A DNA stretch of 64,000 bases from Planctomycetota bacterium (GTDB taxonomy: Bacteria > Planctomycetota > UBA1135 > UBA2386), in the NCBI GenBank assembly GCA_016795295.1, contig JAEUHP010000205.1:1-64000 (forward strand), given 5' to 3'. A model generated the notes under the pieces. The model ran no database searches, was not told the DNA's origin, and worked only from the letters and a program-made list of their open reading frames with translations. A program made the translations under genes and the position numbers. Below are positions 29,248-58,047 of the stretch, in pieces. Numbering within the stretch: position 1 is the first letter of the stretch; every line of letters begins with the position of its first letter.

Positions 29248-29644
29248 TAGCGGCAACGGGTATCGTTGTGGCGGCCGCAGTTGTGGCCTCGGTTTCTCGC
29301 GAGTGTGAAAGTCGGAGGAGGGGGCTCGTCGATCTTCTGGGCCCATCGGGCTGATGGTCACACTTGGCTTGGGGTGTGCTGTACGCTTGGCGAGAGCTCT
29401 TCGGTGAGACCGTCTGGGACCGGAGGTGCGTCATCCTGCGATGGCATGCTCTTCGCGGCACCGGGCGGTGCTTGCGGTGCTGGCTTTGCGCGAATCGGTG
29501 GAAGAACCAGATCGTGGTGCGCGTCCCAGAGTAGTGATCCTTGGTTCGACTTTGGCGTTGCTGCTGCGGCCCGGCTAGACTGGGGCTGTCGTCAGGCTGA
29601 GATCAACCGCCAGACTGAGACCAACCGCCAGACTGAGACCTGTG
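29248..29644. other. Gene-poor spacer between rpsG and the PDZ protein
   Basis: About 400 bases without a convincing gene; a 167-codon open frame here has low-quality composition and no recognisable motif. Near the end it contains TTGGCG (29552-29557) and TAGACT (29576-29581) with an 18-base spacer, a possible promoter. An 18-bp tandem repeat then runs up to the next start codon. Confidence 0.5.
29604..29639 (+). repeat. Two tandem 18-bp units before the PDZ gene
   Basis: CAACCGCCAGACTGAGAC is exactly duplicated at 29604-29621 and 29622-29639, with a degenerate partial copy just before (29591-29603). The array ends five bases before the ATG at 29645, so it occupies the ribosome-binding region and no clear Shine-Dalgarno is left. 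Confidence 0.88.
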
Positions 29645-32794: not shown

Positions 32795-32893
32795 GCGGGT
32801 TGCGCTCACTAGGCCGGCGCCGCGTGCTTGCCGCACTTGGCATCTGTGCGCCGAAGAGGCGTACCAGTGGTTGCACGGCTGGGCAGCTCCGGC

Positions 32894-34258
32894 ATGATGC
32901 CGGTGGCGATGCCCGACCTTGCGAAGCGTGACCTGGTTTCGATCGAAGACCTCAGCACGGCTGAGATCCTCGAGCTGTTCCATCATGCCGACGAGTTCCG
33001 TGCCAACCTCGGCGATTGGTCCGACCTGTGCCGAGGCGCCATCATGGCCACGCTCTTTTTCGAGCCGAGCACCCGCACCCGCTTGTCCTTCGAGTCGGCG
33101 ATGCTCCGACTCGGTGGTGGGGTGATCACGGCAGCGGACGAGAAGAACACCAGCCGCAGCAAAGGGGAATCGCTCGCCGACACCGTGCGAGTCGTCGGTG
33201 GGAGCTACGCAGACATCCTAGTCGTCCGGCACCCAGAGGACGGCGCGGCGCGTGTGGCAGCTCGTTATGCGCGCGTGCCCGTGGTGAACGGCGGGGATGG
33301 TGCGCACGAGCACCCGACCCAGACGCTCTGCGATCTCTACACGCTGTGGAAAGAGAAAGGGCGGCTGGAAGGGCTCGAAGTGGTGTTGTGCGGGGATCTG
33401 CGCTACTCGCGTACGATCCACTCGTTCTGCTACGCGTTGGCGCGCTTCGGTGCCAACATCGTCACCATGCCGTATCCGGGCTTCGAGTTGCCCGACTACG
33501 TCCTGCACCGCCTCCGTCGCAACTTTGGTGTGCAGACCGCGGCTGCTTCGGTCGCCGATCTGCCAGGCATCGCTGGCAGCAGCAACGCCGCGGCCTACCT
33601 GACGGCGAGCACCCCGCATCAGTTGGCGCTGTTCACCAACCTGACCAACGTGGAGGTGAACCGCATCGACGCGATCTACATGACCCGTGCCCAGCGCGAG
33701 CGGCACAGCGGAGAGTCCACGGCGAACTACCCGCGTCTGTCGCGCACCACGCTGGACGCCGCTGCAGCCAAGGATGCGCGGATCATGCATCCTCTGCCGA
33801 GAGTGGACGAGATCGACTACGACATCGACGACGACCCTCGGTCGATCTACTTTCGGCAAGCGGAGCTCGGTGTGCCGATGCGCATGGCGCTGATGGCGTT
33901 CTTGCTCGGCCGCATCCAGCTGCGAGCAGCTCGACCTGCCGCACTCAGCACCAGCCCGGGCATCGTCGCGGGTGCAGGGTTGCGCTGTCGCAACGAGCGG
34001 TGCATCACCAACAACGAAGGAGTGCGCTACTTGGTGCGCGACTTCCGCCTGTGCGAGAGCGAAACTCCGCCGGTGCTGGCGTGCGCCTATTGTGAGCGCG
34101 AGGTGGAGGCCAGGTTCGTGGGTGATGCCGCCAGCCGTTCCTTCCATCGGTACAGCGCCGCGGAAGCGCGGCAGGTTCGAGGCGAACAGCGGGTGTACTT
34201 CGAATCCGAGGCGCAAGCTCTGGCCGCAGGCTTCTCGCCGGGCGTCGAGGGGGCGTGA
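32894..34258 (+). CDS. pyrB: Aspartate carbamoyltransferase with fused PyrI-type zinc domain
   Basis: Makes N-carbamoylaspartate, the committed step of pyrimidine synthesis. Residues about 10-345 are a complete catalytic chain: STRTRLSFES (59-68), the lysine loop SRSKGESLADT (88-97), HPTQTLCDLYT (140-150), GDLRYSRTIHS and HPLPRVDEI. After a short linker comes a four-cysteine unit, C365-x4-C370 then C397-x2-C400 (GLRCRNERCI, LACAYCERE). It matches the zinc-binding half of the regulatory chain PyrI, but the nucleotide-binding allosteric half is absent. A 50-residue tail ends VYFESEAQALAAGFSP. Start codons at 32828, 32897 and 32909 are also possible. Confidence 0.93.
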   Translation: MMPVAMPDLAKRDLVSIEDLSTAEILELFHHADEFRANLGDWSDLCRGAIMATLFFEPSTRTRLSFESAMLRLGGGVITAADEKNTSRSKGESLADTVRVVGGSYADILVVRHPEDGAARVAARYARVPVVNGGDGAHEHPTQTLCDLYTLWKEKGRLEGLEVVLCGDLRYSRTIHSFCYALARFGANIVTMPYPGFELPDYVLHRLRRNFGVQTAAASVADLPGIAGSSNAAAYLTASTPHQLALFTNLTNVEVNRIDAIYMTRAQRERHSGESTANYPRLSRTTLDAAAAKDARIMHPLPRVDEIDYDIDDDPRSIYFRQAELGVPMRMALMAFLLGRIQLRAARPAALSTSPGIVAGAGLRCRNERCITNNEGVRYLVRDFRLCESETPPVLACAYCEREVEARFVGDAASRSFHRYSAAEARQVRGEQRVYFESEAQALAAGFSPGVEGA

Positions 34259-34703: not shown

Positions 34704-37700
34704 ATGAATCGACTCTTGCGCGGAGCTAGTTCGCTGCCAGTCTCCGACCGGTGGTTGCAGGCCCTTCGACTGCCGGTTGCTCTGGCTGCAACCCTTTGGG
34801 TCGCGGCTTGTGGCGGTGGCGGTGGCGGCACTGGCAACGTCGGCCCTGGCTCGGGGCAGCCCAGGTTGCTGCGCGTGGAGTTCGGCCGGGTCGTGGACGT
34901 GTACGGCTACCAGGCGGCACCCGAAGGCGGTGTGGTCCGGGCGCTCTATCGCCGCGACGTTTTGATCGGTTCGAACATCGTCGACGAGCGGGGGCCGAAC
35001 GAGAACAAGCCGGACGAGGAAGTCGTGTACGACTTCGTCGGATCGGATCCGGACACGCTGCAGCCACGCCTCTTCATTCCGCGCCTCATCGAGAGCCCGG
35101 CGTTCACCTCGGCGTTCACCGCGCTGGATGCTCAGGTTCGGGAAGTGGCGCCGATGCGCGCCGGCACAGCTGGTCCCGGCCGCCCCTTCTCCGTGGTGCC
35201 GCGCAACGCGGCCGTGCGCCTGACCTTCTCGGCCCCGCTGGGGGTCGACGACGGCTTCTTCGTGCAACGCAACGAGCAGGGCTTGGTCACCGGACTGCGC
35301 AACACCGAAGCCGTCCAGCTGCTCCGCATCACGGGCAACCCGGAGCTGCCGGGCGGGCTTGCGCCGCTGCCGGTGCGCATCGTCGTCGGCGAGCGTCAGC
35401 TCCTGCTGGATCCCGTGCTGCTTGGCACGGAAGGCCAACAGTACCAGGCGCGCAACACCGCTTCTGGGTTGCCCGAGTCGGCGGACCAGTCCAGCGCCAG
35501 CATCCGAGTTGCCCTGGCCATGGAGGGTCCGCTGGCCATCCCATCTCTGCGGGAGACCAACGGGCTCACCGGGATGAACAACAGCATGCGGAAGTCGGTC
35601 ATCCGCGACTTCCGTGCCGGCAACAGCGGCGACGACTCAGCCGACATGGCGCGTGGCTTCGTCCGCGACCCGCTGCCCTTGCGCCTGATCGGCGAGATGG
35701 TGATGTACTTGGAGCGAGTCGAGCGCATCAACGACTTCACCCAGGAAGTGACGATCTACAAGAACGGCATCGACCAGGAAGTCGACGTTGGCGACGTTTT
35801 GCGCTTCGTCAACGACTCTTCGGGGATCCCGTTCGGTGCGGCGGAGGTGGTGGTCGATCCTGAGGACGATCGCGGCCAGCCCTCGGTCCAGCACGTTCGC
35901 GTGCGGATCCGGTCGATCCCGGGGCTCGAAGCGATCGACCCGCGCAATTTGCCGGGGTATCCGGCCGCAGTAGGGGAACGCGAGCCCTGGTTGGTGCAGA
36001 ACGCGCCCAAGGCCGTGCTGGTCGCCGAATTCACGGCTGGCAGCGTGGAGACCGGCGGGGACAATCCGCGCTACTTCCTGAGCTTCATCCCAACCCCACT
36101 GCCACTGAGCACCGGTGTGCCCAGTCCCCCAGGCACCAACGTGTCGCCGTTCGCGGGGGCCGTGGTGCGGTTCACCAAGCCTGTGGACATGTCGACGGTG
36201 TTGTCTGCCGACACGCTGTTCTTCGGCATGCGGGACTTGGTGAGTGAGGAGGCCCAGCAGGCATTCATCAACAGCCGACCCAACAGCCAGGGTGGGCAGG
36301 GCATGGAGCCGGCGGCTTTCAACTCGGACAAGTATCGGACGCCGTTCCTGGTCGCCGCGAAGGTCTATGACGAGGATGGATCGCAGACCTCGTTGCGTCT
36401 GCAGCCCACCAGCGGCTTCTATCTCGACAGCACCATGCGCTCGCCGCCCGTGGGAGCCGACTTCTCGTACTTCCTGCACCTGATCGCCGAGTCGCCTCAA
36501 GGTGGTATTCGCGACTTGTCGGGCAACCGGCTGGATCTGCAGGGCGCGAGCGCCGAGCGCAGCAACTACGTCGTCATCGACTTCACCCTCGACACCCGTT
36601 CGAACGGCTCGGTGCCGTTCTTCGAAGACAACCGAGTGGTGTCGATCGTGCGCCGATTCGCCGCACGGGACGAGGACGAGAATCCCTCGTTGTTCTTGGG
36701 CAACGAGATCCAGGCTCCTGGTGCCCCTGCGCTGGCCACCGCCTACCCGCTCGAAGACATCGCCGGCGCGGTCGTCTATCTTGGTGGCAAGATTCAGGCG
36801 CGCCCCACCACGCGAATCCGGCAGATCGGCGACAACCAGAATCAGGCCCCGGTCGCGGCCCAGAATTCGATCCTCGCCTGGTGCCCGCCGACGGTCTCCA
36901 ACGAGCCACAGGTTTCGAACAACTCGTCGAACGCCCCGTTCGGCCAGGGCATCCAGAACCCACTCAATCCCTATGGTTGCCGTTTGCAGACCGTTTGGCG
37001 CGAAGTCGATCTGAGCCTGTCGCGCACCGACGCCTATGACTTCAACCTGGACGTGGAGCAGATGTACTGGGCGCCCTTCACCGGCACGACACTGATCTAC
37101 GACGAGTTCGACCGCGTGAGCATGTTCCTCGGCCACTCGGAGTACCGGCCCTTGCCGTGCATCGGTCAGTTCAGCGCGATGCCGTCGTTGTCCGACTCCG
37201 GTCTGCGCAGTCAGTTCCAGCGCAACTTCGTTTGGAATCCTGCGCCCCTGACGACTTCGGCCACTGGTCCGATCGAGACCCAGCCGGCTCCGCATCCGGC
37301 TTACGTGGACGTGCCCATGGTCATCGATCCTGCGACCGTGGTCTATGAGCCGAACAACATCAATCGGTTCTTGCCCTTGCCCCGGTTCCGCAAGCCCTAC
37401 TTCGTGTTCCGGGACGAGACCGTGTACGAGCAGGGTGGCGATGCCGGTTCCGGCGTCGACACGGGCACCGGTTCGAGCTACACGCCGTACCTGGTTTCTC
37501 CTTGGAATCACGGTTTGGGACGCCGTTGGTTCCCCGGCGAAGGCAATGCCCCAGCCTTTGCGAGCTCGTTCTGGAACGACTGCCGCAACTTCCAGCTCAC
37601 CACGTCTTCTTCCCAGGAATTCAGCACCGGTGGTCTGATGGGCAGCATCGCGTTGCCGTTGATCGCCGACTTCTGGACCTACTGCGACTCCCCGCAGCTG

Positions 37701-38639
37701 CCGGAAGGAAATGGCTACGTGGCCCTGGGCACCAACGGCTGGCAGGTCTCGCTGACTGTCCAGTCCAGCCCGCAGCCGAACTTCCGCACGTTCTCGGCGG
37801 GTCGCCCGCCTTTGCCGACCCAGCCCAACCCCATTTGCGTGGGGCCCAGCAGCAATGCTTGGGGTGTTGCTGCGGGTGGCTACACCTACCCCGCGGGGGG
37901 CGCGACCCCTCCTTCCGACAACTCGTTCTATTGGATCATGGTCGACTTCCTGCGTCGGCAGACCGTGATCACCAACGGCTTCGTGGACCTCAACAATCCA
38001 CACCGTGTCCCGGAGGGGTTCTCCGACACCCGCCTCGGGCCGTACTTCCTCTCTGGAGGCAACAGCACTCGTCCGGCCGACATCAGCCCGGTGTTCGGCT
38101 ACGAGATGGAGCCGCCCCTGTCCAGTTTGCCAGGGGGCAGCTCGGTCGTTCCGCAGTTCCGCGCGGCCGGCCCCGTGGATGGCAGTCCTTGGTACTGGGA
38201 CCGTTGGGTCAGCGCGGCGACGCCGCTCTATCCGGCGGCTCAAACCAATCCTCCTGGACCCTACACTCCGCTTGGTTCGCCTGCGCAGCGGCAAGCCCTC
38301 AGGCCCACTGCGGACAATTTCCCCTTGGATCCGTTCAAGGCGACGGATGCCCACATTCGCAAGTGGGACAACCGAGCCGTGCCGGGCGGTACGCAGGCTC
38401 GGAACTGGTGGACTTACTTCTACAACCGGACGGTCACCCGGTATGTCCAGGACCCGAACCAGCTGTTCTCGCCAGCATTCACTGCTGCCTACGCTGGGCC
38501 CAACGAGTCCTTCACTCCGCGTGACATTCGCTATCTGAACTGGCGGTTCGTCATCGCCAACGATGTCGAGGCAAGTCCTCCGGTGGTGCCGACCATCGAG
38601 ACCTTCTCTCTGACCTACCGATTCCAACGCGTGTTCTGA
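34704..38639 (+). CDS. Giant lipoprotein A1 (DVYxYQ/DVEQxYW family)
   Basis: A 1311-residue predicted lipoprotein with signal and lipobox LWVAAC (Cys36) followed by a polyglycine stretch. After VEFGRVVDVYGYQ (about 60-72) come beta-rich segments that include SbsA-like Ig signatures (GAVVRFTKPVDMSTV near 484; GGIRDLSGNRLDL). A distinctive core follows, FNLDVEQMYWAPF...YDEFDRVSMFLGHSEYRP (about 780-815), and the end TIETFSLTYRFQRVF. The gene at 42404 is a clear paralogue sharing each landmark. No catalytic motif is visible; an extracytoplasmic structural or binding role is inferred. ATG 34704 is chosen for the intact lipoprotein signal; about 240 upstream codons overlap pyrB in another frame. 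Confidence 0.85.
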   Translation: MNRLLRGASSLPVSDRWLQALRLPVALAATLWVAACGGGGGGTGNVGPGSGQPRLLRVEFGRVVDVYGYQAAPEGGVVRALYRRDVLIGSNIVDERGPNENKPDEEVVYDFVGSDPDTLQPRLFIPRLIESPAFTSAFTALDAQVREVAPMRAGTAGPGRPFSVVPRNAAVRLTFSAPLGVDDGFFVQRNEQGLVTGLRNTEAVQLLRITGNPELPGGLAPLPVRIVVGERQLLLDPVLLGTEGQQYQARNTASGLPESADQSSASIRVALAMEGPLAIPSLRETNGLTGMNNSMRKSVIRDFRAGNSGDDSADMARGFVRDPLPLRLIGEMVMYLERVERINDFTQEVTIYKNGIDQEVDVGDVLRFVNDSSGIPFGAAEVVVDPEDDRGQPSVQHVRVRIRSIPGLEAIDPRNLPGYPAAVGEREPWLVQNAPKAVLVAEFTAGSVETGGDNPRYFLSFIPTPLPLSTGVPSPPGTNVSPFAGAVVRFTKPVDMSTVLSADTLFFGMRDLVSEEAQQAFINSRPNSQGGQGMEPAAFNSDKYRTPFLVAAKVYDEDGSQTSLRLQPTSGFYLDSTMRSPPVGADFSYFLHLIAESPQGGIRDLSGNRLDLQGASAERSNYVVIDFTLDTRSNGSVPFFEDNRVVSIVRRFAARDEDENPSLFLGNEIQAPGAPALATAYPLEDIAGAVVYLGGKIQARPTTRIRQIGDNQNQAPVAAQNSILAWCPPTVSNEPQVSNNSSNAPFGQGIQNPLNPYGCRLQTVWREVDLSLSRTDAYDFNLDVEQMYWAPFTGTTLIYDEFDRVSMFLGHSEYRPLPCIGQFSAMPSLSDSGLRSQFQRNFVWNPAPLTTSATGPIETQPAPHPAYVDVPMVIDPATVVYEPNNINRFLPLPRFRKPYFVFRDETVYEQGGDAGSGVDTGTGSSYTPYLVSPWNHGLGRRWFPGEGNAPAFASSFWNDCRNFQLTTSSSQEFSTGGLMGSIALPLIADFWTYCDSPQLPEGNGYVALGTNGWQVSLTVQSSPQPNFRTFSAGRPPLPTQPNPICVGPSSNAWGVAAGGYTYPAGGATPPSDNSFYWIMVDFLRRQTVITNGFVDLNNPHRVPEGFSDTRLGPYFLSGGNSTRPADISPVFGYEMEPPLSSLPGGSSVVPQFRAAGPVDGSPWYWDRWVSAATPLYPAAQTNPPGPYTPLGSPAQRQALRPTADNFPLDPFKATDAHIRKWDNRAVPGGTQARNWWTYFYNRTVTRYVQDPNQLFSPAFTAAYAGPNESFTPRDIRYLNWRFVIANDVEASPPVVPTIETFSLTYRFQRVF

Positions 38640-38665
38640 AGGCAGGTTCCTCGGCAAACTCTGGC

Positions 38666-38685
38666 ACTCGCTGTCGCCAGCGAGT
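38666..38685 (+). promoter_or_regulatory. Perfect 8-bp hairpin between A1 and B1
   Basis: ACTCGCTG and CAGCGAGT flank a TCGC loop, 26 bases after the A1 stop. There is no T tract, so it may stabilise the upstream message or attenuate B1 rather than terminate. Confidence 0.45.
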
Positions 38686-38783
38686 AGCCGTCGTGGTAGT
38701 CTGCGACCCTGCTTTGCTGCCCTGGTGCGAAGCCAGGCGCCCTCTCCCCTCTGCCCCGTCCTGCTTCCGGCCCTCTCCCAGCC

Positions 38784-41700
38784 ATGACTCGAAGCCTGCA
38801 GGGACCTTGCGTCCTTTCCTCGGTGCTCCTCGGCCTGCTCGTCTCCTGCTCGGGGGGGGGCGGCGAGGATGGTCCTCCGGGTAGCTCCGGTCGCCTCACG
38901 GTTCTGCAGACCGACCCGGTCAGCAACGGTCGTCTGTTCTTGAACGACCCGGTCCAGATCGACTTCAGCAAGCCGGTCGACTTGGCTTCGGCCAGTCTGA
39001 ACACGGTCAGCTTCGTGGTGTTCGACCAGCTCGGGCAACCCCTGGCGGAGCAAGTCGCTGGCGATTTTTCGCTGGTAGCCAGTCCTGGTGACGTGGAGGT
39101 GGGGCGTCGTCTGCGGTTCGTGCCCCGCTTCCCGACCAACTCGACCTTCGACAACGGTGGGTTTCGCCCTGGGCGAACCTACTTGGTGCAGTTGGTCGGC
39201 GGCAGCCGACTGAACGGCACGGTGCTGCGCGCTACGGATGGTCAGTCCTTGTCGCAGGCCGTGAGCTTCCGCTTCTCCACCGCGGATGGCGTTTCCTCCG
39301 CCCAGTTGTTCCGCAACTCGACGGTGGGTGGGCCTCGCCGCGTGGGCCTCGACTTCTCTCCTGCCAACGACGGTTCTGGGATCGTCCTGAACAAGCTTGG
39401 ACAACAGCCTCTGGAGATCAGGCTGCACTTCGACCAAGCCTTGAATCCGAGCACGACCAATGTGCCCACGGCTCTCGACACCGATCCGCTCGTGCGCTCG
39501 GTGGGCTCCCGTGGCCGGATCTTCCTGGAGTACGACGATCCGGTGTTTGGCACGGACACATGGATTCCGGCCGACGTGGAACTGGAGCGCAATACGCTCA
39601 GCGGTTCCACCGTGGTCCTGCGGCCAGTCGGTGTGTTGCCCAACAATGCCACGATTCGCGTTGTGGTCGAGAGCAGCCTCGAGGACATCTCGGGTGAGTC
39701 GAATCTGGGCAATGCCGCCTACGAGCGCTACTTCGGCACGTTCACCACGCGGCGGGCCTACGAGCAGCAATTCGATGCCGTCGTCGACGAGTTCCTCGAT
39801 GCCCGCAACCTCGACTTGAACGCCGCTTTTGCCGAGCCGATCGCTGAGGTCGGCCCCGGTTACGTGCGGGCGAGCTTGAACTTCGAGGGTGGTCCTACCA
39901 ACCTGGACTTCGAGCCGCAACAGCAGCAGGTGGTGCTGAACACCAACTTCACCCAGGTCACGCCCAAGGTCGGGGCTCCTTTCAACGTGACGGGCGGCGT
40001 CTTCAACTTCCGGAACGTCCAGATCAACAGTGGGATCACGGTTCGAGGCCAGGGCACCAACCCGATGGTGTGGCTGGTCAGCGGCCGATTCGAAGTGGCG
40101 GGCACGCTCTCCGTCCGCGGTGGAGATGGTGTCAGGGTGACCACCACTGCTGCCGCCGACGTCGCCAAGACTGGCGGTGCCGGTGTTTGCGGTGGCGGCA
40201 ACGGCGGTGCTGGCTCCCCGCAAACTAGGCAGAGGAGCAGTGCTGGCGCGACCGGTAATGGCCCCCTGCAGCAGGCTTTGCGTGGTGGTGGTGGTGGCGT
40301 GCTTTCGTGCTTCAGCACCTGCATGAGAGGTTCAGGCGGTGGTGGTGGTTCCTTGGCGACCCAGGGCGACCCCAATTTCCTGAGCAAGACGGTTCCTGCC
40401 GGCGCAGCCAACCCGGTCAACGTGTTTCCGATTTTCGGCCAGCAGGCAGGCACTGGCGGTCTCGGATGCTCTGGCGTTGGCGGTGCTGGTACTCGTCAGC
40501 TCCCCGGTGGCATTCCGGGGCCGATCGTGTTCTCGGACGCGCGTCAGGACAACAACTTCTGGGGCAGCGGCGTGAATTTCCGCACTGGCTTGCGCATCCA
40601 AGGCGAGTTGGCTGCCCCCCTTGGCGGCGGCGGCGGCGGTGGCGGCGGCGACCTGTCCTACAACAGCAGCAGCAACAACTGCAACCTGGACGATTCGAAC
40701 TTCCGTAGCGATGCTGCCGGCGGCGGCGGTGGTGGCGGTGGTGGTGTTTTGATCGTCAAGGCGCTTGGCGACATCGTCATTCGCGAAACTGGCCGAATCA
40801 TTGCTGATGGTGGTTCGGGTGGCTGTGGTGAAGTGGGTAGCGGGGCGGTCGGTGTCCGCGGTGGCGGTGGCGGCGGCGGGGCTGGTGGCATGGTGGTCTT
40901 GATGTCGGCAACGCGCATCGAGATCCACGCCCACGGTGGCAACAGCACGGTGTCGCCCTTCAGCCGTGTCGACACGTATGCCCAGCGCGACTACGACTTC
41001 GCCATTTCCGCGGACGGCGGTGTCTGCGTGACGGCTTCGACCACGAACCCGCAGGTGCTGGCCAAGTATCCGGCGGGACGTGGCCAGGCCACGGTCCTGC
41101 CCGCGACCTACGACTCTGCCCCGCTTGGTGGATTCGGCGGCATGGGCATCGTGCAGTTGATGGCCCCTCCGGGCAACAACAGCGACGGGACCAATACCGT
41201 TCTCGACGACAACATTCGGGTCATGCGGCTCGGCGTCGAGGCTCCACCTCTGCTCAAGCGGCAGCTCTTGGCTTGGCGCGGTTATCCCAATGCGGCTGGT
41301 GATCTGGTTGGCGACGATGGTTTGCCGACCAGCATCGGCGACAACGAGGGCGACATTCGGCCCGCGCCGATTCTGCTGCCCGCTCCGTTCGGTGCCAAGA
41401 GTCGCATTCGCACCAAGTGGATCGACACCGGGGCCAGTGTGCGCCGTGGTCTTCTGGCGGACGATGGTCTGGCGAGAGGCGTGGTGGAGCAGGCCGGAGC
41501 CGTGCGGGGACCTCTCTACGAATTCGCCGCAACGGCAACTTCTGGCTTCGCAGCTGGCTACTTGACCTACGATCCTTCGGCCGGCGAATCGGTTCGGGTG
41601 ACGTATCCTGCGGTCGGCGCCCCTGCCGCCATTGTGGCTCGGGATCCGAACGCCACGTTCCTTGGCCAGCCCGCGTACCGGGTGCAGATTGGCGTGGGCA

Positions 41701-42227
41701 CGTTGGGTGACGTGGTGGATCGTTACGCCGGCTACCATGCCGAGCTGCGCGACGGTGGGGGGGCTCCGGTCCGTTCGTTCCGGATCCTCTCTCACTCGGA
41801 TCGAGTCTTGGTCTTGTCGCCCGATGCCGGTCCGCTGCCTACCGCAGCCGAGGCCGTCGACGTGCAGTTGCGAGCCAAATTCGTTGGCGTTACGACCAAC
41901 GGCATCGAGGGCCTCGGGCCGTCGTACTCCGGGAGTGTTGGAGGAGCTCGCGTGCCCAATGCGAACCTGCGACTGGGCTTCGCCTTCCATCGCAATCCGG
42001 CCAACTCCTCGGCTCCCCGGCTGCCTTCGACCGAGGGCACCTACCTCTATGATCTCAGCGACCCAGTCGTTCAGGAGAGCATCCGGCAGTTGGGCGCTGC
42101 GTTCGTGCAAGTCGACATCCTGTTCGACTGCGCATTCCGCAGCGTGTCGGGCGATGTGCCTACCAGTTTGAGTCCGACCACGCCCAGGCCGAAGCTCGAG
42201 TTCCTGACCATTCCCTTCCGCTTCTGA
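38784..42227 (+). CDS. Giant lipoprotein B1 with Ig-like domains and glycine-rich insert
   Basis: A 1147-residue predicted lipoprotein (lipobox LLVSC, Cys22). Residues about 35-165 form an SbsA-like Ig domain (LFLNDPVQIDFSKPVDLAS, FRPGRTYLVQLVGG), and a second follows to about 320. Next is a shell-type segment FNFRNVQINSGITVRG...GRFEVAGTLSVRGG (about 405-455), then a very glycine-rich block (about 463-710) with repeated GGGG runs and DIVIRETGRIIADGGSGG. The C-terminal beta-rich domain ends KLEFLTIPFRF. A run of nine G (38852-38860) sits just after the lipid-anchor codon. The gene at 46594 shares the layout without the insert. Function unknown; surface location inferred. Confidence 0.85.
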   Translation: MTRSLQGPCVLSSVLLGLLVSCSGGGGEDGPPGSSGRLTVLQTDPVSNGRLFLNDPVQIDFSKPVDLASASLNTVSFVVFDQLGQPLAEQVAGDFSLVASPGDVEVGRRLRFVPRFPTNSTFDNGGFRPGRTYLVQLVGGSRLNGTVLRATDGQSLSQAVSFRFSTADGVSSAQLFRNSTVGGPRRVGLDFSPANDGSGIVLNKLGQQPLEIRLHFDQALNPSTTNVPTALDTDPLVRSVGSRGRIFLEYDDPVFGTDTWIPADVELERNTLSGSTVVLRPVGVLPNNATIRVVVESSLEDISGESNLGNAAYERYFGTFTTRRAYEQQFDAVVDEFLDARNLDLNAAFAEPIAEVGPGYVRASLNFEGGPTNLDFEPQQQQVVLNTNFTQVTPKVGAPFNVTGGVFNFRNVQINSGITVRGQGTNPMVWLVSGRFEVAGTLSVRGGDGVRVTTTAAADVAKTGGAGVCGGGNGGAGSPQTRQRSSAGATGNGPLQQALRGGGGGVLSCFSTCMRGSGGGGGSLATQGDPNFLSKTVPAGAANPVNVFPIFGQQAGTGGLGCSGVGGAGTRQLPGGIPGPIVFSDARQDNNFWGSGVNFRTGLRIQGELAAPLGGGGGGGGGDLSYNSSSNNCNLDDSNFRSDAAGGGGGGGGGVLIVKALGDIVIRETGRIIADGGSGGCGEVGSGAVGVRGGGGGGGAGGMVVLMSATRIEIHAHGGNSTVSPFSRVDTYAQRDYDFAISADGGVCVTASTTNPQVLAKYPAGRGQATVLPATYDSAPLGGFGGMGIVQLMAPPGNNSDGTNTVLDDNIRVMRLGVEAPPLLKRQLLAWRGYPNAAGDLVGDDGLPTSIGDNEGDIRPAPILLPAPFGAKSRIRTKWIDTGASVRRGLLADDGLARGVVEQAGAVRGPLYEFAATATSGFAAGYLTYDPSAGESVRVTYPAVGAPAAIVARDPNATFLGQPAYRVQIGVGTLGDVVDRYAGYHAELRDGGGAPVRSFRILSHSDRVLVLSPDAGPLPTAAEAVDVQLRAKFVGVTTNGIEGLGPSYSGSVGGARVPNANLRLGFAFHRNPANSSAPRLPSTEGTYLYDLSDPVVQESIRQLGAAFVQVDILFDCAFRSVSGDVPTSLSPTTPRPKLEFLTIPFRF
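38852..38860 (+). repeat. G9 homopolymer just inside lipoprotein B1
   Basis: Nine consecutive G lie in codons 23-25, directly after the lipobox cysteine codon. This is the longest single-base run I noticed in the window; the other runs are six to eight bases. A one-base slip would truncate the protein shortly after its signal, as in phase-variable surface genes. Confidence 0.85.
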
Positions 42228-42403
42228 ACCCATCGTGACGAGCGCCAACTGCACTGCCTTCTCGAACTGGCATCTCGGCTCCCGGCGAGCCTCGGTTGGC
42301 GCTGCATCGTCCTCTACCCAATCTCACTGAGTGTGCCCGGGAATCCTTGGTTCTCGGTTGCTCGCAACAGACCCCTGCTGCCACCTGCTCTCCAGGCCCT
42401 CCC

Positions 42404-45400
42404 ATGATCGTTGTCAATCGTCCGTCCAGACTCGCGGGTTTCGGTCTCCCGGGATTTGCTGCTCTCGCCGCGCCGGTGCTCATGGCATCGCTGCTCCTTG
42501 TGCTGTCGGGCTGCGGCAACGGCTCGGCTGCCAAAGACGCTTCCGGAGGTGGAGGCAAGGTCGAGCTGGTTTCGATCGACTTGGGGCGCTTGGTGGACGT
42601 CTATGCCTACCAGCGGATCGATCCGGCGGTTGGCGACCGTCGCCTGCGGACCAACCGAAACCTGGTCAAGGTGGCTTCCAACGTGGTCGTGAATCCACGT
42701 CTCGGCAGCGATGCTCTGTTCGACGCCGTGGGCGCTGAGGTACCCACTGCCACCTACGAGTTCCGTCCGTTCGATTCTTCGATCGGGCACGAAGAGCTCG
42801 TGATTCTCTGGGACAATCGTCCTGGTCCAGAGTCCGCCCGATTCCAAGACGCACTGGCGGCGGCGCAGAATGGCCTGACCAATCTGGCTCCGGCGTTTCG
42901 TGGGCAGAACGTGGTGCTGCGCCCCATTCCGATCGTGCCTCGGAATGCTGCCTTGCGCATGCAGTTCAGTGGTCCGATCAATGCCACGGAAGAGTTGCTC
43001 CGCAACAACCCGTCGGTCGTACAGTTGCTGGAGTTCAAGGGCGATCCCGCGGTGGTCTCGCCAGCGGATGCCTTCCGCATCCTGCCTTGTCGGGTCATCC
43101 CGCAGGGCGATCGCATCGTGGTCGACACCACGATCCTGGGTGGGGAAGGTGCGGGTGGCCTGCGCTCGAGCGGTTTGCCGGCATCGGATGACAATGTGAC
43201 GGCAAACATTCGTTTGGCGATCCCGACTCGAGGTTCTGCGATTTCGTCGGTCTTCGTTCAGGCGGATGGTATTCCCGATCTCAACGGCGTGGACAGCACC
43301 GGCCGCGCCTCCATCATTCGTGACTTCCGTTCCGGCAATTTGCTGGATGGAGTGGCTGGGCGACTCCCAGAGGACGAAGCCCCGATGGTGATCGGGAGCT
43401 TCAGCATGGGTATCACCGCCATCAACCCGGTTACCCGGGAATTGACACTGGCCAAACGCGGCAGTTTGGTGCCGGTGCGTGGCCGGTACCCGTTCGTCGA
43501 TGGACCGCTTGGCACGGGAGGCGTTCCGATGGGGCCGCTGGCTGCGCCGATTGCAACCCCATTGCGTTCCGGAGACATCCTGACGCAGTCCAGGCTGGTC
43601 GAGATGCCCGACGGCAGCTTCGAGACGGTCACCTTGCGCGCGGAGATCTTGCAGAATTTGGCGATTGGTACTGAGTTCGGTGGTTCCCTGCCGCTGGGCC
43701 GGTCGGGAAGCTCGAATCCGAGTGAGATCCAAGGGCAACACTTGCCCACTGTGACGGTCAAGGTCGCTTCGCTCGAGGCTGGAACCGATTCTCTGGGACG
43801 CAGCTACTCCTTCGAGGCCCTCGGCACGTCCAGCGGTAGGGACTGCATCCTCCGCGCCTATTATTACAATTCGATTCCCTACACTGGATCCAACCAGGTG
43901 ATGGGGGATCGCGATTGGCGCAAACTGTTCCTGCGGGTCGACCCGCAGCCGTTGCCCGATCCGGGCTCGACTGCGATCACGGGAGTGAATCCGATCGGCT
44001 CGTTCGGTGTGGAGTTCAGCAAGCCGATGGACCTGGATCAGGTGGATCCGACCGCGAGTTTGGTGCTGACCAACACCCATGCGCCGTTGGTCCCCGAGAA
44101 TCCGGGTCCCGGCGAAGAACGCTTCTCCGATCAGATGGGTGACGCCAAGAAGGCGACCACGCGGGTGGTTTCCACGCGCCTCTCTGACTTGAACGGCGAC
44201 GGTACCATCCTACGGCTGCAAGCGCCCTATGGCCTTTACCATGCCAACGGCTCGACCGAGACCTATGCTTTCCACGTGATGCTGGGGGCGTCGGGAGTCA
44301 CCGACTTGGCGGGTAATCCCGTGCGTGTCTACGACAGCCCAACCGCGCCACTCGAGGCTTGGTCGGTGAATCTGCTGATGAACGCAACGGCGAGCACCAA
44401 CATGATCGGCTACCACACGTTCATGTTCACGGATGCCGACGAAGACGGCACTCTTCCGGGTTCGATCGACATCTTTGGTCAGTTCCGACTGCAGGGTGGC
44501 CGGTTGTTCGGTGCGGCTGGTGTCCGCTTTGCCCGTACGGCGGACAGTCAGAATCTCGGCGGTATCAATCGCATCAACCGCGGCGAGTGCTGGGACACCG
44601 CCAACAGCGTCTTGGTCGTGCCGACGGCCAACGCCCCTGCCCCAACCGATGAGAATGGTGCTCCCCATCCGGGCCGCCTCTACTGGCAGCCCAGGATGCT
44701 GGATTCCATCGCTCCTCCGGCAGTTCCACAGGTCTACGAGTATTGGCAGCAATTGCCGCAGAAGGTCGGTCGTGTGCTCGAGCCGCACAACCCACGTGGC
44801 ACGCGCATGCAGATGCGCTACATCGAGGACGACTTCACCCTGGATTATCGCGAGCCAGCTGAGTTCGCAATCGATGTCGAGCAGCTCTACTGGTCGCCCT
44901 TCGACGACGAGACGGTGTACTACGATGTGTTCGATCGGTACTCCATGTCGTTGGCGCATTCCGGTAAGCGCCCAGACGTTTTCTTCCGGTTGGTGCAGCC
45001 GGCCGGCATGCCGCCGCCCCCGCTCCGTTGCAGCTACGTCTGCACTGCCAACAACAGTGCCCTCTCGACGCTCTTCTCGGAGAACGTTCTGGAAGGGACC
45101 TCTGCGGTCTCGGTTTTCGAGGACAAGATCTACCGGATCAACCCGAACGAGGCTTTCCGTTCGCCGCTGGGCATCAAGTACGTGCCATTCCCGCGCTTCG
45201 ACCGCAGCTACACGTGGCGGGATTCGCGTCTGGTGACTCGGGATGCGGCTGGTGCCATTCTCGGTCTCGGCGGAGCGCAGTCGCCGAGCACGGCCCAGCC
45301 CAACACCAACTCGGACTGGACCGCCCACATCGATTCCCCTTGGGTCCCCAGTGCTGCACCCGCTCCGTTCCTGAACGCAGGTTTCAGCACGTGGGTCATG

Positions 45401-46414
45401 GACGACGCAGACTTCAAGGGCAACATTCAGCGAGACCACGATCCGATTGCTCTGCCTCTGCTGGTGGACTTCAAGGTGTTCCCCGACACCCCGGCCAACA
45501 ATGGCTTGGCGACCGGCCAGAACGCGTTCCAGGTGGCTCTGGTTGGCCCGCCTTCGTTCGGCTTCCCCGCCACCACGGGTGGCTACTACGATCGCCGGCG
45601 TGCCAACATCTGCAACCCCGCAGTGCCGGCTTGGCCCGACGTCCGTGCGCAGGCTTCGGGTGGCGAGGACTTGATCACCGGCAACCCGATCTTCATCGAT
45701 CCGGCCAACCAGCTGGTGGCACAGCCGAGCACCCTGCGGGACGCTGGGTTGGGCAACGCCACGCGCGCCCTGTTCCAGGCTCCGGCCCGCGACGGCATGC
45801 TGAACTGGGCACGCGCGGACTTCGTGCGCAAAGTCTCCACCGCGACCTTCGGCTTCTTCGACACCCTGCAACCGCAGCGTTCGCTGCTGGTGTCGTATGC
45901 AGCCTCTGGTGCGGCCTCGGTCACCGCAAGCAATGGGTTCCCAGACTTGGCTGCGGTGGACCCGAACCTGCGCATTTCGGACATCGTCGTGCAGATGGAT
46001 CCGCCTTCGACTCGGCAGCCAGCCGGAACCGGCGTGGTCGTCGAGCTGCGGGGAGCCGAGTCCTTTGCCAACGCGGCTGAACTGTACAATCCTGACTTCA
46101 ATCAGGCGGGGCAGACTCCCAACGATGGCTACAACACTCGTGGGAACCTGCTGAACCCGAACTACGCATGCGAAGCCTACCGCTATTCGCAGCCAACGTT
46201 CGGGGCCGGCTTCGACACGCCGCGAGTGGCTGCCACGGGCTTGACCCGGTACGTCGGAGACGACCAGATCCAACTGATCCGTGATCCCGCGACCCAGTTG
46301 CTGCCGCGCTACTTGAACCTGCGGCTGAATCTGACCAACAACGTTGGGGTGACGCCGCCGCTGTCGCCGTCTCTCCGCAGCCTGAGCATCGTCTACCGGC
46401 TCCGCGCGCCGTGA
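42404..46414 (+). CDS. Giant lipoprotein A2, paralogue of A1
   Basis: A 1336-residue predicted lipoprotein (lipobox LVLSGC, Cys37). It repeats the landmarks of A1 in order: IDLGRLVDVYAYQ near the N-terminus, VPRNAALRMQFSGPI (A1: VPRNAAVRLTFSAPL), SIIRDFRSGN (A1: VIRDFRAGN), Ig-like GVEFSKPMDLDQV and DLAGNPV, the core FAIDVEQLYWSPF...YDVFDRYSMSLAHSGKRPD (about 820-855), and the end LRSLSIVYRLRAP. Overall identity is clearly partial, so the duplication is old. ATG 42404 gives a proper signal peptide. It lies between the two B-type genes. No enzymatic motif is seen. Confidence 0.85.
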   Translation: MIVVNRPSRLAGFGLPGFAALAAPVLMASLLLVLSGCGNGSAAKDASGGGGKVELVSIDLGRLVDVYAYQRIDPAVGDRRLRTNRNLVKVASNVVVNPRLGSDALFDAVGAEVPTATYEFRPFDSSIGHEELVILWDNRPGPESARFQDALAAAQNGLTNLAPAFRGQNVVLRPIPIVPRNAALRMQFSGPINATEELLRNNPSVVQLLEFKGDPAVVSPADAFRILPCRVIPQGDRIVVDTTILGGEGAGGLRSSGLPASDDNVTANIRLAIPTRGSAISSVFVQADGIPDLNGVDSTGRASIIRDFRSGNLLDGVAGRLPEDEAPMVIGSFSMGITAINPVTRELTLAKRGSLVPVRGRYPFVDGPLGTGGVPMGPLAAPIATPLRSGDILTQSRLVEMPDGSFETVTLRAEILQNLAIGTEFGGSLPLGRSGSSNPSEIQGQHLPTVTVKVASLEAGTDSLGRSYSFEALGTSSGRDCILRAYYYNSIPYTGSNQVMGDRDWRKLFLRVDPQPLPDPGSTAITGVNPIGSFGVEFSKPMDLDQVDPTASLVLTNTHAPLVPENPGPGEERFSDQMGDAKKATTRVVSTRLSDLNGDGTILRLQAPYGLYHANGSTETYAFHVMLGASGVTDLAGNPVRVYDSPTAPLEAWSVNLLMNATASTNMIGYHTFMFTDADEDGTLPGSIDIFGQFRLQGGRLFGAAGVRFARTADSQNLGGINRINRGECWDTANSVLVVPTANAPAPTDENGAPHPGRLYWQPRMLDSIAPPAVPQVYEYWQQLPQKVGRVLEPHNPRGTRMQMRYIEDDFTLDYREPAEFAIDVEQLYWSPFDDETVYYDVFDRYSMSLAHSGKRPDVFFRLVQPAGMPPPPLRCSYVCTANNSALSTLFSENVLEGTSAVSVFEDKIYRINPNEAFRSPLGIKYVPFPRFDRSYTWRDSRLVTRDAAGAILGLGGAQSPSTAQPNTNSDWTAHIDSPWVPSAAPAPFLNAGFSTWVMDDADFKGNIQRDHDPIALPLLVDFKVFPDTPANNGLATGQNAFQVALVGPPSFGFPATTGGYYDRRRANICNPAVPAWPDVRAQASGGEDLITGNPIFIDPANQLVAQPSTLRDAGLGNATRALFQAPARDGMLNWARADFVRKVSTATFGFFDTLQPQRSLLVSYAASGAASVTASNGFPDLAAVDPNLRISDIVVQMDPPSTRQPAGTGVVVELRGAESFANAAELYNPDFNQAGQTPNDGYNTRGNLLNPNYACEAYRYSQPTFGAGFDTPRVAATGLTRYVGDDQIQLIRDPATQLLPRYLNLRLNLTNNVGVTPPLSPSLRSLSIVYRLRAP

Positions 46415-46593
46415 TGCGTGCGCGTGGGCCGGTTGCGGTCCTTGCCACCAGTCTTGGTTCCTTCTGCCTAGGCTGTGTTTGCGGTGTGGGGAGCTGCCGT
46501 CTGGCTGGACTGCCTTCAGGCAATTGTCGATTCTAGGGAGTTGCTGGCCGTTTGGCGGGTTCTGACCGCTGAGGCACTTGGTCCCTGTTCGTC

Positions 46594-48426
46594 ATGAGTA
46601 GACTTCCTGCAGCTCTGCTCGTCTCGGCCTTGGTGCTCTCCGCATGCAGTCCTGATGCCGAGCAGCCGGAGCCGTTTCGTGTGGTCAGGGTTGCTCCCGA
46701 GGATGCGGCTGCTGCGGTTCTTGCGCTCAACGATTCCATCACGGTTTGTTTCTCGGCAGACCTGGCGCCGACGAGCGTGACCGAGGAGTCCTGTGCTGTT
46801 CTAGACGAAGCTGGACTGCGTGTATCAGGTGGGTTGCGGGTACGTGGACGGCATCTCACGTTCTCGCCTCGCGTTCCGTTGGCTCCCGACTTGTCGGATG
46901 GCTCCTTTCTTCCAGGGCATCGTTACCAGATGGTGCTGGCCGGCCTGCCGCGGCCGGACGGAATTCGGGCTGTGGACGGCCGCCGACTCTCGTGCGGGGT
47001 CGTACTGGATTTCACGACTGCTGCGCCCGGCCACCCGCAGCACGCTGTGCTCCGAAGCCCGTTGCCGGGTATGCCGTTCTTGCCCGTAGACCCCGCTGGG
47101 CCCCAACAGTTGGCCGTGGATCGTCCGCTTCTGCAGGTCCGATTCACGGCTCCCGTGGCACCATGGTCGGTCCAAACTGGTGCCGTCCAGATTCGCCGCT
47201 ACGGCAACCCGGTTGAGGTGCTGATGCCTCGGGGAGTTCGGTTGGTCCGTGCTGCGCGAGACGAACTGGAAGGGGCGCTGCTGGAGGTCGACCTGGGCGG
47301 CGTTCTCATGGACATCTCGGGTCGGCGGGTGCGCCCCTTGCAGGTAGGCGACCTCTTGTCGTTGTCGCTGTCGCAAGGCACCGCCGCGCTCCGGGATTAT
47401 GGCGGAGTGCCGGTCCTGCCTGCTGGGGAGCCCTGCTGGCATGTGATCCCGGGGGCTGCAGTCGCGCGTATGCAATGGCCTGGGATCCCGGATGCAGGCC
47501 TTGCAGGTGCCGCCACCCAACCGGGTTTCGAAGTGTACGCTGGCGCAGTGATGCCGCGTGCGCGGCTCGAAACTGGAACGGGTCGGCACGGTTCGTTCGT
47601 TCCGCAGGTCGACACCTCGATCGCATCGATGCAGCCCTTCGATCGGGGGGACCGTGTCGAGGTGCGCAGCGACGAGGGGCGGTTCGAGTTCCTGGGGATC
47701 GAGATTCCAGCCGGGGTGGTGGTCACCGTCGATGCGACCCGCGGCCCGGTGCGGTTGCTGGCTGTAGGTGGTGTTCGGATCGCCGGGACTCTGCGGATTC
47801 TCGCGCGGGCGCTGCCTTTGCGGCTGCTCCGACCTGGCGCCCCGGTCGAGGCTGCCCTCGAGATGGCTCCCGTGGCCATCGCCGCATCCGGCAGCATCGA
47901 GATTGCGGGCCGGATCGAAGTGGTCGACGGGGTGGCTCCTGACGCCACTGCTCTTTGCCTAGCCAGTGCCAGTGGCGTCGATCTCAGTGGTCCGATTCCC
48001 TTCCATACGCTACTGGCCGTGGCGGAGGCAGAGGATGTTCCTGCTGTTCCCGCGATCCGGGGAGCTCGTGGCCAGGCCCTGGTGGTTGCGGTTTCGTTCC
48101 AACGCGGCGTCCCCGCAGGGGCCAGCTGGACGGCCGTCGCAGAGTCGCCATGGCTGCAAGTGCCGATGGACCTTGGCTCGAGTCGACTCCATCTGGTCGA
48201 CGCCGCGCCAGGTTGCTCGGTTGGGTGGCAGACGGCGCCGGCGGACCCCCTGCGCCCCAGCATCCCGGACCTGACCAAGGGCCGGCAGAGTGGCATCCGG
48301 ATCGGCCTGGACGGCGATGCGCTCCCGTTCGTCCCTGGTGAGTGGGTGCGGTTCACGCTGTCTGCAGCCGTGGTCTCCGGCAGTCCCTTGCCCAGTTTGC
48401 GCAGCGTCCAGGTCTTCGAACGCTGA
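46594..48426 (+). CDS. Lipoprotein B2, compact paralogue of B1
   Basis: A 610-residue predicted lipoprotein (lipobox VLSAC, Cys18). An SbsA-like Ig domain (LALNDSITVCFSADLAPTSV, DGSFLPGHRYQMVLAGL, IRAVDGRRL) parallels that of B1 (GGFRPGRTYLVQLVGG, RATDGQSL), followed by a second Ig-like unit. The segment FEFLGIEIPAGVVVTV...GGVRIAGTLRILAR (about 363-405) aligns with the B1 shell, but the glycine-rich insert is absent; GSIEIAGRIEVVDG follows directly. It ends LPSLRSVQVFER. It closes the A1-B1-A2-B2 array. The following genes belong to the pilus group, 172 bases away. Function unknown. Confidence 0.83.
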   Translation: MSRLPAALLVSALVLSACSPDAEQPEPFRVVRVAPEDAAAAVLALNDSITVCFSADLAPTSVTEESCAVLDEAGLRVSGGLRVRGRHLTFSPRVPLAPDLSDGSFLPGHRYQMVLAGLPRPDGIRAVDGRRLSCGVVLDFTTAAPGHPQHAVLRSPLPGMPFLPVDPAGPQQLAVDRPLLQVRFTAPVAPWSVQTGAVQIRRYGNPVEVLMPRGVRLVRAARDELEGALLEVDLGGVLMDISGRRVRPLQVGDLLSLSLSQGTAALRDYGGVPVLPAGEPCWHVIPGAAVARMQWPGIPDAGLAGAATQPGFEVYAGAVMPRARLETGTGRHGSFVPQVDTSIASMQPFDRGDRVEVRSDEGRFEFLGIEIPAGVVVTVDATRGPVRLLAVGGVRIAGTLRILARALPLRLLRPGAPVEAALEMAPVAIAASGSIEIAGRIEVVDGVAPDATALCLASASGVDLSGPIPFHTLLAVAEAEDVPAVPAIRGARGQALVVAVSFQRGVPAGASWTAVAESPWLQVPMDLGSSRLHLVDAAPGCSVGWQTAPADPLRPSIPDLTKGRQSGIRIGLDGDALPFVPGEWVRFTLSAAVVSGSPLPSLRSVQVFER

Positions 48427-48598: not shown

Positions 48599-49576
48599 AT
48601 GTCGACGGCGGTCGTGGTCCAGGCGGGCGCAGCCCTGCTCGGGGCGTGCGTAGGCTCGTTCCTGAACGTCGTCGCGTACCGCTTGCCGCACGAAGACCCT
48701 GCGCGACGCAGTTTGGGTGGTCGATCTCGATGCCCTCGCTGCCGGCAGCAGATCGCATGGTACGACAACTTGCCGGTCTTGGGTTGGCTGTTGCGAGGGG
48801 GCCGCGCCCGATGCTGTGGCGGAAGGATCGGAATCCGTTACCCGATCGTCGAAGCTGCCACTGCCGCGCTCTATTGGTCTGTCGTTGCCTTTCCACCCAG
48901 AGCCCACCTCGCGGGCCAGGACTTTGCCGCGCCGCTCCATGCCACCGGCACCGCTTGGGCGGCGGTGCTGGTCCTGTGGGTGTTCATCGCCCTGCTGGTG
49001 GCTGCGGCGCTCATCGATCTCGACACCTACCTCTTGTTGGATGTGCTGACCAAGCCCGGCATGGCGATCGGGCTTGCCGCCGGCCTATGGCCAGGGGTTG
49101 CTGGGCGACTCGCGGGCGACCCCTCGGTGCCGCCGAATCTGGACTCTCTGCTGGCGAGTGTGTTGGGCCTGTTGGTGGGCGGGGGCGTGGTTTGGCTGGT
49201 CCGGGTGGCTGGATCCAGGGTGTTCCGCAAGGAGGCCATGGGATTCGGCGACGTGAAGTATCTGGCCATGATCGGCGCGTTTCTCGGGTGGCAGGAAGCT
49301 CTGCTGACCCTGTTCTTGGCCTGCATATGCGGTGCAGCCTTGGGCGCCGTCGGGCTGTGTTTCGGTGGCTCCGCCCGCATCCCCTTCGGGCCATACCTTG
49401 CAGTCGGTGCACTTGCCGCAATGTTCGTGCGCGAGCCCACGCTCGAGTTTCTGTTCGTCACGTGGCCGGAGTGGCAGAGGGGCTCTTCGTCGGCTCCCTG
49501 GCTGCTGTCGGCCGCAGCAGTCTTGTCCTTGTTGGCCCTGTTCGTCGTGATCCGCAAAGGAAGGCGCGCAGGGTGA
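48599..49576 (+). CDS. pilD: Prepilin peptidase/N-methyltransferase (A24 family)
   Basis: Inner-membrane aspartic protease that cleaves and N-methylates type IV prepilins. The 325-residue protein has about eight hydrophobic segments. The cytoplasmic loop contains CPRC (45-48) and RCC (72-73), and ends GIRYPIVE. Catalytic aspartates are in ALIDLDTYLLLD (Asp140) and GFGDVK (Asp218), with GAFLG after the second. Usual members have CxxC-CxxC in the loop; here the third cysteine position is Ala70 and the pair reads CC, so zinc binding may be altered. ATG 48599 matches family starts (GACVGSFLNVVAYRLP). The substrate is most likely the pilin at 58048. Confidence 0.92.
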   Translation: MSTAVVVQAGAALLGACVGSFLNVVAYRLPHEDPARRSLGGRSRCPRCRQQIAWYDNLPVLGWLLRGGRARCCGGRIGIRYPIVEAATAALYWSVVAFPPRAHLAGQDFAAPLHATGTAWAAVLVLWVFIALLVAAALIDLDTYLLLDVLTKPGMAIGLAAGLWPGVAGRLAGDPSVPPNLDSLLASVLGLLVGGGVVWLVRVAGSRVFRKEAMGFGDVKYLAMIGAFLGWQEALLTLFLACICGAALGAVGLCFGGSARIPFGPYLAVGALAAMFVREPTLEFLFVTWPEWQRGSSSAPWLLSAAAVLSLLALFVVIRKGRRAG

Positions 49577-49602: not shown

Positions 49603-50238
49603 ATGTCGTTCCGCAATTCTCTGTTCGTTCTCGCGGCTCTCGGCCTGTCGCTGCTGACGAGCTGCACCACTCGCTACCAGGATCTGTTGCGCGAGCGCGA
49701 CGATCAGCTGCGTGCCCAGACCGCGCGCGCCAACTCGCTCGAAGAGGAGCTGCAGCGCCGCCAGGCCATGCCGGTCGAGGCGACCACGGCGCCGAAGTCG
49801 GAGGATGCCAACAACGAGGTCACTGCCCTGCAGAGCCAGGTCGGGCCCAACGCGAGCGTCTACATTCGCAACAACCTCCTGAGCATCGGCGTCAACGATT
49901 CGGTGACGTTCGACTCGGGCAGTGCGGCTCTGAAGGAGTCTGCCCACCGTGTGTTGCAGAACATCGCAGCCGTGATGAAGAACCAGTACGCCGGCCACCG
50001 CTTCTACATCGCTGGCCACACCGACAACGATCCGATCAGCAAGTCGAAGGACAAGTTCCGCAGCAACCGGCACCTGTCCACCGAGCGAGCCGACGCGGTG
50101 TGCCGCTACCTGGTCTCACAGGGCGTCCCTGAGTCTTCGGTGGTGGTCGTCGGCTACGGCCAGTACGATCCGCTGTCTGGCAGCAAGGCGCAGAATCGGC
50201 GTGTCGAAGTCGGCATTGGCGAGAAGATCCGCCGCTGA
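49603..50238 (+). CDS. OmpA-family peptidoglycan-binding lipoprotein
   Basis: A 211-residue lipoprotein (LLTSC, Cys21) with a charged coiled coil (about 25-60) and a C-terminal OmpA-like domain: TFDSGSAALKESAHRVLQ, the peptidoglycan-contact segment FYIAGHTDNDPI, then NRHLSTERADAVCRYL and NRRVEV. Pal and related proteins with this layout tether the outer membrane to the wall. GGGAGG precedes the ATG by four bases. It starts 26 bases after the prepilin peptidase gene and is probably cotranscribed. It could anchor the pilus or the large lipoproteins, but that is inference. Confidence 0.92.
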   Translation: MSFRNSLFVLAALGLSLLTSCTTRYQDLLRERDDQLRAQTARANSLEEELQRRQAMPVEATTAPKSEDANNEVTALQSQVGPNASVYIRNNLLSIGVNDSVTFDSGSAALKESAHRVLQNIAAVMKNQYAGHRFYIAGHTDNDPISKSKDKFRSNRHLSTERADAVCRYLVSQGVPESSVVVVGYGQYDPLSGSKAQNRRVEVGIGEKIRR

Positions 50239-52635: not shown

Positions 52636-52922
52636 GTCGGCCGCATTCCTGGTGTCCGGAAGCGCGGTCGGTGTTCGCCCTTCCCGGCACAGCCCGCCAC
52701 GCTGATCGGCTGAGCACCTCAGGTCGGCAGGCGTCCTTGGGGCCGTGGAGGGCGTGACGAGCACGGGGGCGCGGTGCGGTGCCCAACTTGGTAGGAGAGC
52801 GCGTGGGGAGGGGCCCGCGGGGGCCGTGGGCCGCCGAGTTCTCAGCTCAACCACTGCCCCACCCGAAGCCGATAGCTCCCAGGCTCGGTCGCTTGGACCG
52901 CGCGCACACCAGGAGCACGCCG

Positions 52923-54029: not shown

Positions 54030-54030
54030 C

Positions 54031-55737: not shown

Positions 55738-55771
55738 CCGTGGGCCGTCGAAGAACCCAAGAGATCTGCAA

Positions 55772-57007: not shown

Positions 57008-57081
57008 AGTCGGTGCTGCGGACGAACGTGCATGTTCCAACAGATGTTCGGGTGGGAATTCTCGTACTGGGGAGCACAGCT

Positions 57082-57960: not shown

Positions 57961-57996
57961 CCGCGGCGGCAGCGAACGGAAGAGAGAGAGACGGTG

Positions 57997-58017
57997 CACC
58001 GACCGGGTAGGTCGGTG
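57997..58017 (+). promoter_or_regulatory. Hairpin in the pilA leader
   Basis: CACCGACC pairs with GGTCGGTG around a GGGTA loop, ending 30 bases before the pilA ATG. No T tract follows. It could stabilise the abundant pilin mRNA or separate it from the pilTBC transcript. Confidence 0.5.
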
Positions 58018-58047
58018 TCGTCGGAACAGTCAGGGAGAAAACCACCA

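Follow-up and report, generated by a model that had tools for sequence, protein, structure and literature searches.

The window analysed here, a 64,000-nucleotide stretch from a Planctomycetota bacterium (assembly GCA_016795295.1, contig JAEUHP010000205.1, positions 1 to 64,000 of the forward strand), carries four consecutive genes for large lipoproteins, A1, B1, A2 and B2. By sequence comparison they are a local form of a cassette whose ancestral arrangement is A-B-B2 followed by a prepilin peptidase gene. The A-B-A-B2 order seen here is, on the evidence of the A and B trees, an A-B-B2 cassette in which A was duplicated alone, with one A coming to lie between B and B2. We tentatively suggest that the cassette encodes large, acidic, surface-displayed outer-membrane lipoproteins which form one assembly and are served by, or work with, the surrounding type IV pilus/type II secretion-like machine. 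The cassette is undescribed and is built partly of known domain types, family A being without named relatives in the libraries searched; a search of open-licence papers found no description of it.

Four lipoproteins of two families

All four genes lie on the forward strand. A1 (34704..38639) encodes a multi-beta-domain, immunoglobulin (Ig)-like lipoprotein of 1311 residues with a mature mass of 139 kDa and a pI of 4.9; it is followed by B1 (38784..42227; 1147 residues), A2 (42404..46414; 1336 residues), a paralogue of A1, and B2 (46594..48426; 610 residues), an ancient half-length paralogue of B1. Each protein begins with a signal peptide and lipobox (VAAC, LVSC, LSGC and LSAC, respectively), and the lipobox cysteine (C36 in A1, C22 in B1, C37 in A2 and C18 in B2) is invariant or at least 90% conserved among orthologues. 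In the genome collection, families, genomes, contigs and loci are numbered f, G, C and L, the present genome being G000; the A1 orthologues of families f1 and f3 are 40-67% identical. A promoter and terminator scan of the locus did no better than shuffled sequence, so the operon structure is judged from spacing and strand.

An earlier sequence-only reading of the window had described four lipobox proteins in a row, the first related to the third and the second to the fourth. The open reading frames were all recovered with the same positions and lengths, and by profile comparison A1/A2 and B1/B2 are true paralogue pairs. BLASTP aligns A1 and A2 over two co-linear segments (E=3e-32 and 5e-28), and their family profiles match over 1106 columns (E=3e-132), the homology being whole-length. 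For B1 and B2, BLASTP finds the first Ig-like domain (E=1e-11) and the profiles align residues 1-448 of B1 with 1-406 of B2 (E=3.8e-30), some 450 N-terminal residues which include the ‘shell’ segment (FNFRNVQI...EVAGTL in B1, FEFLGIEI...RIAGTL in B2) noted previously. The kinship of the second and fourth genes thus stands, but not their equivalence, since B2 is a half-length B which has the Ig-like domains and the start of the shell segment and lacks the glycine-rich and C-terminal domains. The A and B profiles share a weak C-terminal match (55 columns, 67% probability) and comparison of A2 with B2 gave no match; apart from those 55 columns, A and B are unrelated.

Duplication history

From the alternating gene order, the sequence-only reading had concluded that an A-B unit was duplicated as a whole. 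The trees contradict this. In a tree built from the N-terminal region common to the B proteins, one branch (99.5% support) has every B2 protein (from f1, f3, f8 and f4) on the same side, so that B1 and B2 predate the divergence of these families. The A trees, obtained by quick searches with two models, group the two f8 copies in one clade and the A1 and A2 proteins of f1 and f3 in another (100%). Forcing A1 to group with either f8 copy lowered the log-likelihood by 230 units, and in the approximately unbiased (AU) test, run on a 16-row set, these placements had p values of 1.4e-45 and 6.2e-45. By these trees the A1/A2 split lies inside f1 and f3, that is this family and one sister family, and is later than the B1/B2 split. 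The equal age of the two splits implied by unit duplication is rejected by the trees and the AU test.

A was duplicated alone not only here but also, independently, in several other lineages. Within f2 it was duplicated separately (genomes G009, G013 and G005). The f2 genome G009 (L176; G009:C18) has reached the A-B-A-B2 order independently, both of its A proteins being of the f2 type. In genome G005 (L161; G005:C1:5128070-5142995), a single B is preceded upstream by four A-type genes in a row, A having expanded repeatedly. Duplication of an A-B unit has in its favour the alternating order itself and the copying of A-B pairs together elsewhere: genomes G071 and G077 have a second A-B pair (L099 and L174), with neither B2 nor prepilin peptidase in the part read, from which it follows that A-B pairs can move together. 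Set against the ages of the two splits and the independent order in G009, however, unit duplication is barely credible as the origin of the present arrangement, and the AU test refutes it unless gene conversion has homogenised the f8 A copies. An alternating gene order need not mean pair duplication.

Distribution and gene order

The genomes surveyed are mostly fragmented metagenome-assembled genomes (MAGs). Single-sequence searches of the 154 genomes of the order found relatives of A2 in 107 and of B1 in 148. With profiles, A was matched in all 67 of the f2 and f4-f7 genomes searched and B in 63 of them. A strong B match is present in 62 of these genomes; in 52 of the 62, an A match lies immediately upstream on the same strand, within 1 kb of B, with a median gap of 113 bp. 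Several of the remaining B genes sit at contig ends. Virtually all genomes of this large planctomycete order, which is known chiefly from metagenomes, have the gene set.

The position of the cassette is also conserved. Almost all f1 and f3 loci read keep A1-B1-A2-B2, flanked by pyrB and the prepilin peptidase gene. Family f8 has A-A-B-B2 in the same position, and f2 and f4 mostly have A-B-B2, at times with extra A genes. The wider order pyrB-cassette-prepilin peptidase-OmpA lipoprotein is found in f1, f3 and f8, and in f2 and f4 with the A-B-B2 form. In a phylum sample of 392 genomes, strong A matches were confined to the order, with eight weak A matches and 25 B matches outside it. Two families outside the order retain the locus: f24, with PDZ-coaX-mnmE-pyrB-A-B-B2-prepilin peptidase (L157), and f47, with PDZ-coaX-mnmE-A-B-B2-prepilin peptidase-EF-G, the last gene encoding elongation factor G (L158, L184 and L187). 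Among the f47 variants, L188 has no detected B2, and L195 and L196 are split over contigs. When named genome contigs were scanned, a single protein found nothing and an alignment found 48 loci; the named records with relatives are MAGs of uncultivated Planctomycetota, among them a CL500-15 freshwater bin.

The sequence-only reading had proposed that A and B work as a pair, perhaps in an extracytoplasmic assembly or as receptors, a role they may have. Their adjacency is far above chance across the order and recurs in f24 and f47, and that part holds; the partnership is not obligate, as this genome and others have B by itself and a few genomes have A-type genes with no B next to them. The evidence supports A-B pairing as gene linkage rather than as obligate partnership. 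A second B locus without A is seen as a single gene (L095) and as three or more genes in tandem (L098; G145:C126), both near neighbour cluster c18, which looks like argJ. Outside the order, in f27 and f71, loci L180, L181 and L189 hold B-type tandem pairs or triplets without A.

Domain architecture and predicted structure

The only Pfam family above cut-off in the four proteins is the Ig-like domain Big_5 (PF13205), at residues 192-322 of B1 and 26-98 of B2. A1 and A2 match neither this nor any other Pfam or NCBIfam family. Two f8 homologues of A do match Big_5, scoring 27.5 and 25.1 bits where the cut-off is 23.6. The NCBIfam scan gave nothing above cut-off for any of the four proteins, and neither family A as a whole nor the other domains of B match a Pfam or NCBIfam family above cut-off. 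An enzymatic function was rejected, as no catalytic family was found in the cassette proteins by Pfam, NCBIfam or PHROGs.

AlphaFold2 models were obtained for B1 (mean predicted local distance difference test score 85.0, predicted template modelling (TM) score 0.78) and for a 1042-residue f8 homologue of A, standing in for the longer A1 and A2 (86.8 and 0.80). Both are nearly all beta. In B1, tandem Ig-like domains are followed by a beta-strand segment that runs to about residue 448, a glycine-rich segment (449-720) and C-terminal beta domains. The glycine-rich segment is 30% glycine, with runs of up to nine and about 40 invariant glycines; its high model confidence without regular secondary structure leads us to infer a polyglycine-type bundle.

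Foldseek searches of the PDB with B1 matched its tandem Ig-like domains only (LdtMt2, antibody Fab fragments and CopC). In a viral library the best match had E=1.1e-9, several matches being annotated as collagen-like or glycine-rich. No significant fold match was found for A, the best being the S-layer protein SbsC (E=1.1e-3, probability 0.25). A sequence search of PDB chains gave no match for A and chance-level matches only for B. The PHROGs search gave a single weak match, in B1; a phage origin was rejected, the viral fold matches being generic glycine-rich or collagen-like ones. A search with PF07596 was uninformative, matching nothing in the genome or in any control. Shorter genes matching only residues ~370-870 of B1, the beta-strand and glycine-rich part, are dispersed across the order (G139:C17:76486-77880, G139:C60, G126:C6, G084:C134 and G086:C102); five such partial matches carry one in-frame TGA.

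Pilus and secretion genes around the cassette

The prepilin peptidase, OmpA-type anchor and pilus genes which the sequence-only reading had placed beside the cassette are indeed there, all on the forward strand. The prepilin peptidase (48599..49576), of the PilD/GspO type with A24 N- and C-terminal domains, is the next gene after B2 in almost all loci read. It is followed by a conserved neighbour, a 211-residue OmpA-domain lipoprotein (49603..50238); the start codons of both genes are inferred. Further downstream (52779..58734) are genes for a PilT-type ATPase, a PilB-type ATPase (MshEN and T2SSE domains), a PilC-type protein, a weakly matching tetratricopeptide repeat-like protein and an N-methylated pilin. 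Upstream, pyrB (32828..34258), encoding aspartate carbamoyltransferase, is a conserved neighbour which serves as a locus marker.

Still further upstream, and conserved in that position in other families, is a protein with an N-terminal hydrophobic segment and a C-terminal PDZ domain (29642..31024), whose PDZ score is just below the Pfam cut-off in the window and above it in relatives. It lies upstream of coaX (in the window and in L157, L158, L163 and L164), and in architecture it is reminiscent of GspC of type II secretion. Upstream in the f2 and f24 loci are genes for a GspE-type ATPase and for a PDZ protein that has a hydrophobic segment at its N terminus. Contig C161 of this genome carries PilM, PilO and a GspD-type secretin, and other secretins are found elsewhere. 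Beside PilM and the secretin on C161 (L179, 11073-12521), one 483-residue protein contains a PilO domain and a weak T2SSB-like domain, which suggests a fused PilO-PilP-like subunit.

Proposed function

If the cassette proteins are displayed at the surface, the conserved sequence signals suggest that they would be exported by Sec and lipidated at the lipobox cysteine. Their trafficking to the outer membrane and exposure there may be aided by the prepilin-peptidase-dependent machine, as suggested by its position and by the precedent of SslE and its type II secretion system (T2SS), T2SS-beta, in E. coli. The architecture is consistent with A and B in one complex in which Ig-like domains act as spacers and the glycine-rich domain of B provides a rigid platform or a binding end. 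Such an assembly might serve in attachment, as a coat or in capture.

Several observations argue for surface display. The lipobox cysteine is conserved in every family and no catalytic domain was found; the A-upstream-of-B order recurs (52/62); the locus is fixed with the prepilin peptidase, in f24 and f47 included; PilM, PilO and a GspD-type secretin are present on C161, and a GspE-type ATPase and PDZ protein in f2 and f24; and A-B pairs are kept as pairs at a second place in L099 and L174. Other observations weigh against it. The housekeeping genes pyrB, mnmE, coaX and EF-G are equally deeply conserved in the locus and share its conserved order, so passive synteny may account for the linkage to pilus genes. 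B is found without A in this genome (L095; G000:C281:29585-33010), as are tandem B genes in f1, f6, f27 and f71, and two f71 genomes have A-type genes without a detected adjacent B (L159 and L160).

The same conserved housekeeping order would suit a general envelope or S-layer-like coat, in which A, B and B2 form an outer-membrane structural layer or tether and the pilus linkage reflects regional order only. Near-universal presence, the multiplication of B at other loci and the best, albeit non-significant, structural match of A to SbsC point the same way. Pfam, however, finds no S-layer homology domain, and the prepilin peptidase is still the immediate downstream gene in f24 and f47; we consider a coat possible, and less likely than display with the machine. 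The position of the cassette in several families, between the PDZ protein or ATPase and PilD-OmpA-PilT-PilB-PilC, might instead indicate an integral part of the apparatus: an aid to secretin assembly, a machine anchor together with the OmpA-domain lipoprotein, or a pilus tip or sheath. Proteins of 600-1300 residues with Ig-like and glycine-rich domains are nevertheless unlike the pilotins and alignment proteins that are known, neither Pfam nor NCBIfam reported a PilY1-type domain, and B multiplies away from pilus genes; we regard this reading as improbable. Least probable of the four is a surface receptor complex for sensing or substrate capture, which might supply a transporter encoded elsewhere. 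The conserved pairing of multi-domain Ig-like lipoproteins would fit such a complex, but searches of the cassette revealed no TonB-dependent receptor, transporter or carbohydrate-binding domain. Display of surface lipoproteins with the machine is favoured because the machine genes nearby are real and SslE offers a precedent.

On a bolder, and more doubtful, reading, A-B-B2 would be a surface-display system of the Planctomycetota not previously described: a lipoprotein complex, near-universal across the order, that a type IV pilus/type II secretion-like machine exports or deploys, and whose A subunit has been duplicated again and again and is diversifying. Surface lipoproteins served by a pilus-type machine would, if real, define the outer face of widespread aquatic bacteria and offer a testable case of large-lipoprotein export outside the Proteobacteria.

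Comparison with known systems

B1 resembles glycine-rich and collagen-like viral surface proteins in its Foldseek matches, but TM-scores of at most 0.3 for the best three and low identity indicate a shared type of architecture at most. A shares with SbsC of Geobacillus a string of beta domains; the match, however, has a TM-score of about 0.1, and by neither fold nor sequence is A significantly similar to an S-layer protein of solved structure. The Big_5, or SbsA-type, domain links B1, B2 and the two f8 A homologues to a known Ig-like family, albeit as a small part of each cassette protein.

The closest parallel is with SslE (YghJ) of E. coli, a lipid-anchored, surface-exposed protein encoded immediately upstream of T2SS-beta, whose secretion depends on the prepilin peptidase PppA (PMC3707838). 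The cassette differs in having three or four lipoproteins where SslE is one, in the type IV pilus character of its adjoining machine genes (a PilT-type ATPase is present) and in the absence from A, B and B2 of an M60-like metalloprotease or other protease domain by Pfam (M60 also by NCBIfam). In both cases, the cassette being known here from its genes, giant lipoproteins are encoded beside a prepilin-peptidase-dependent machine, and the cassette proteins share with SslE an N-terminal lipobox with a conserved cysteine.

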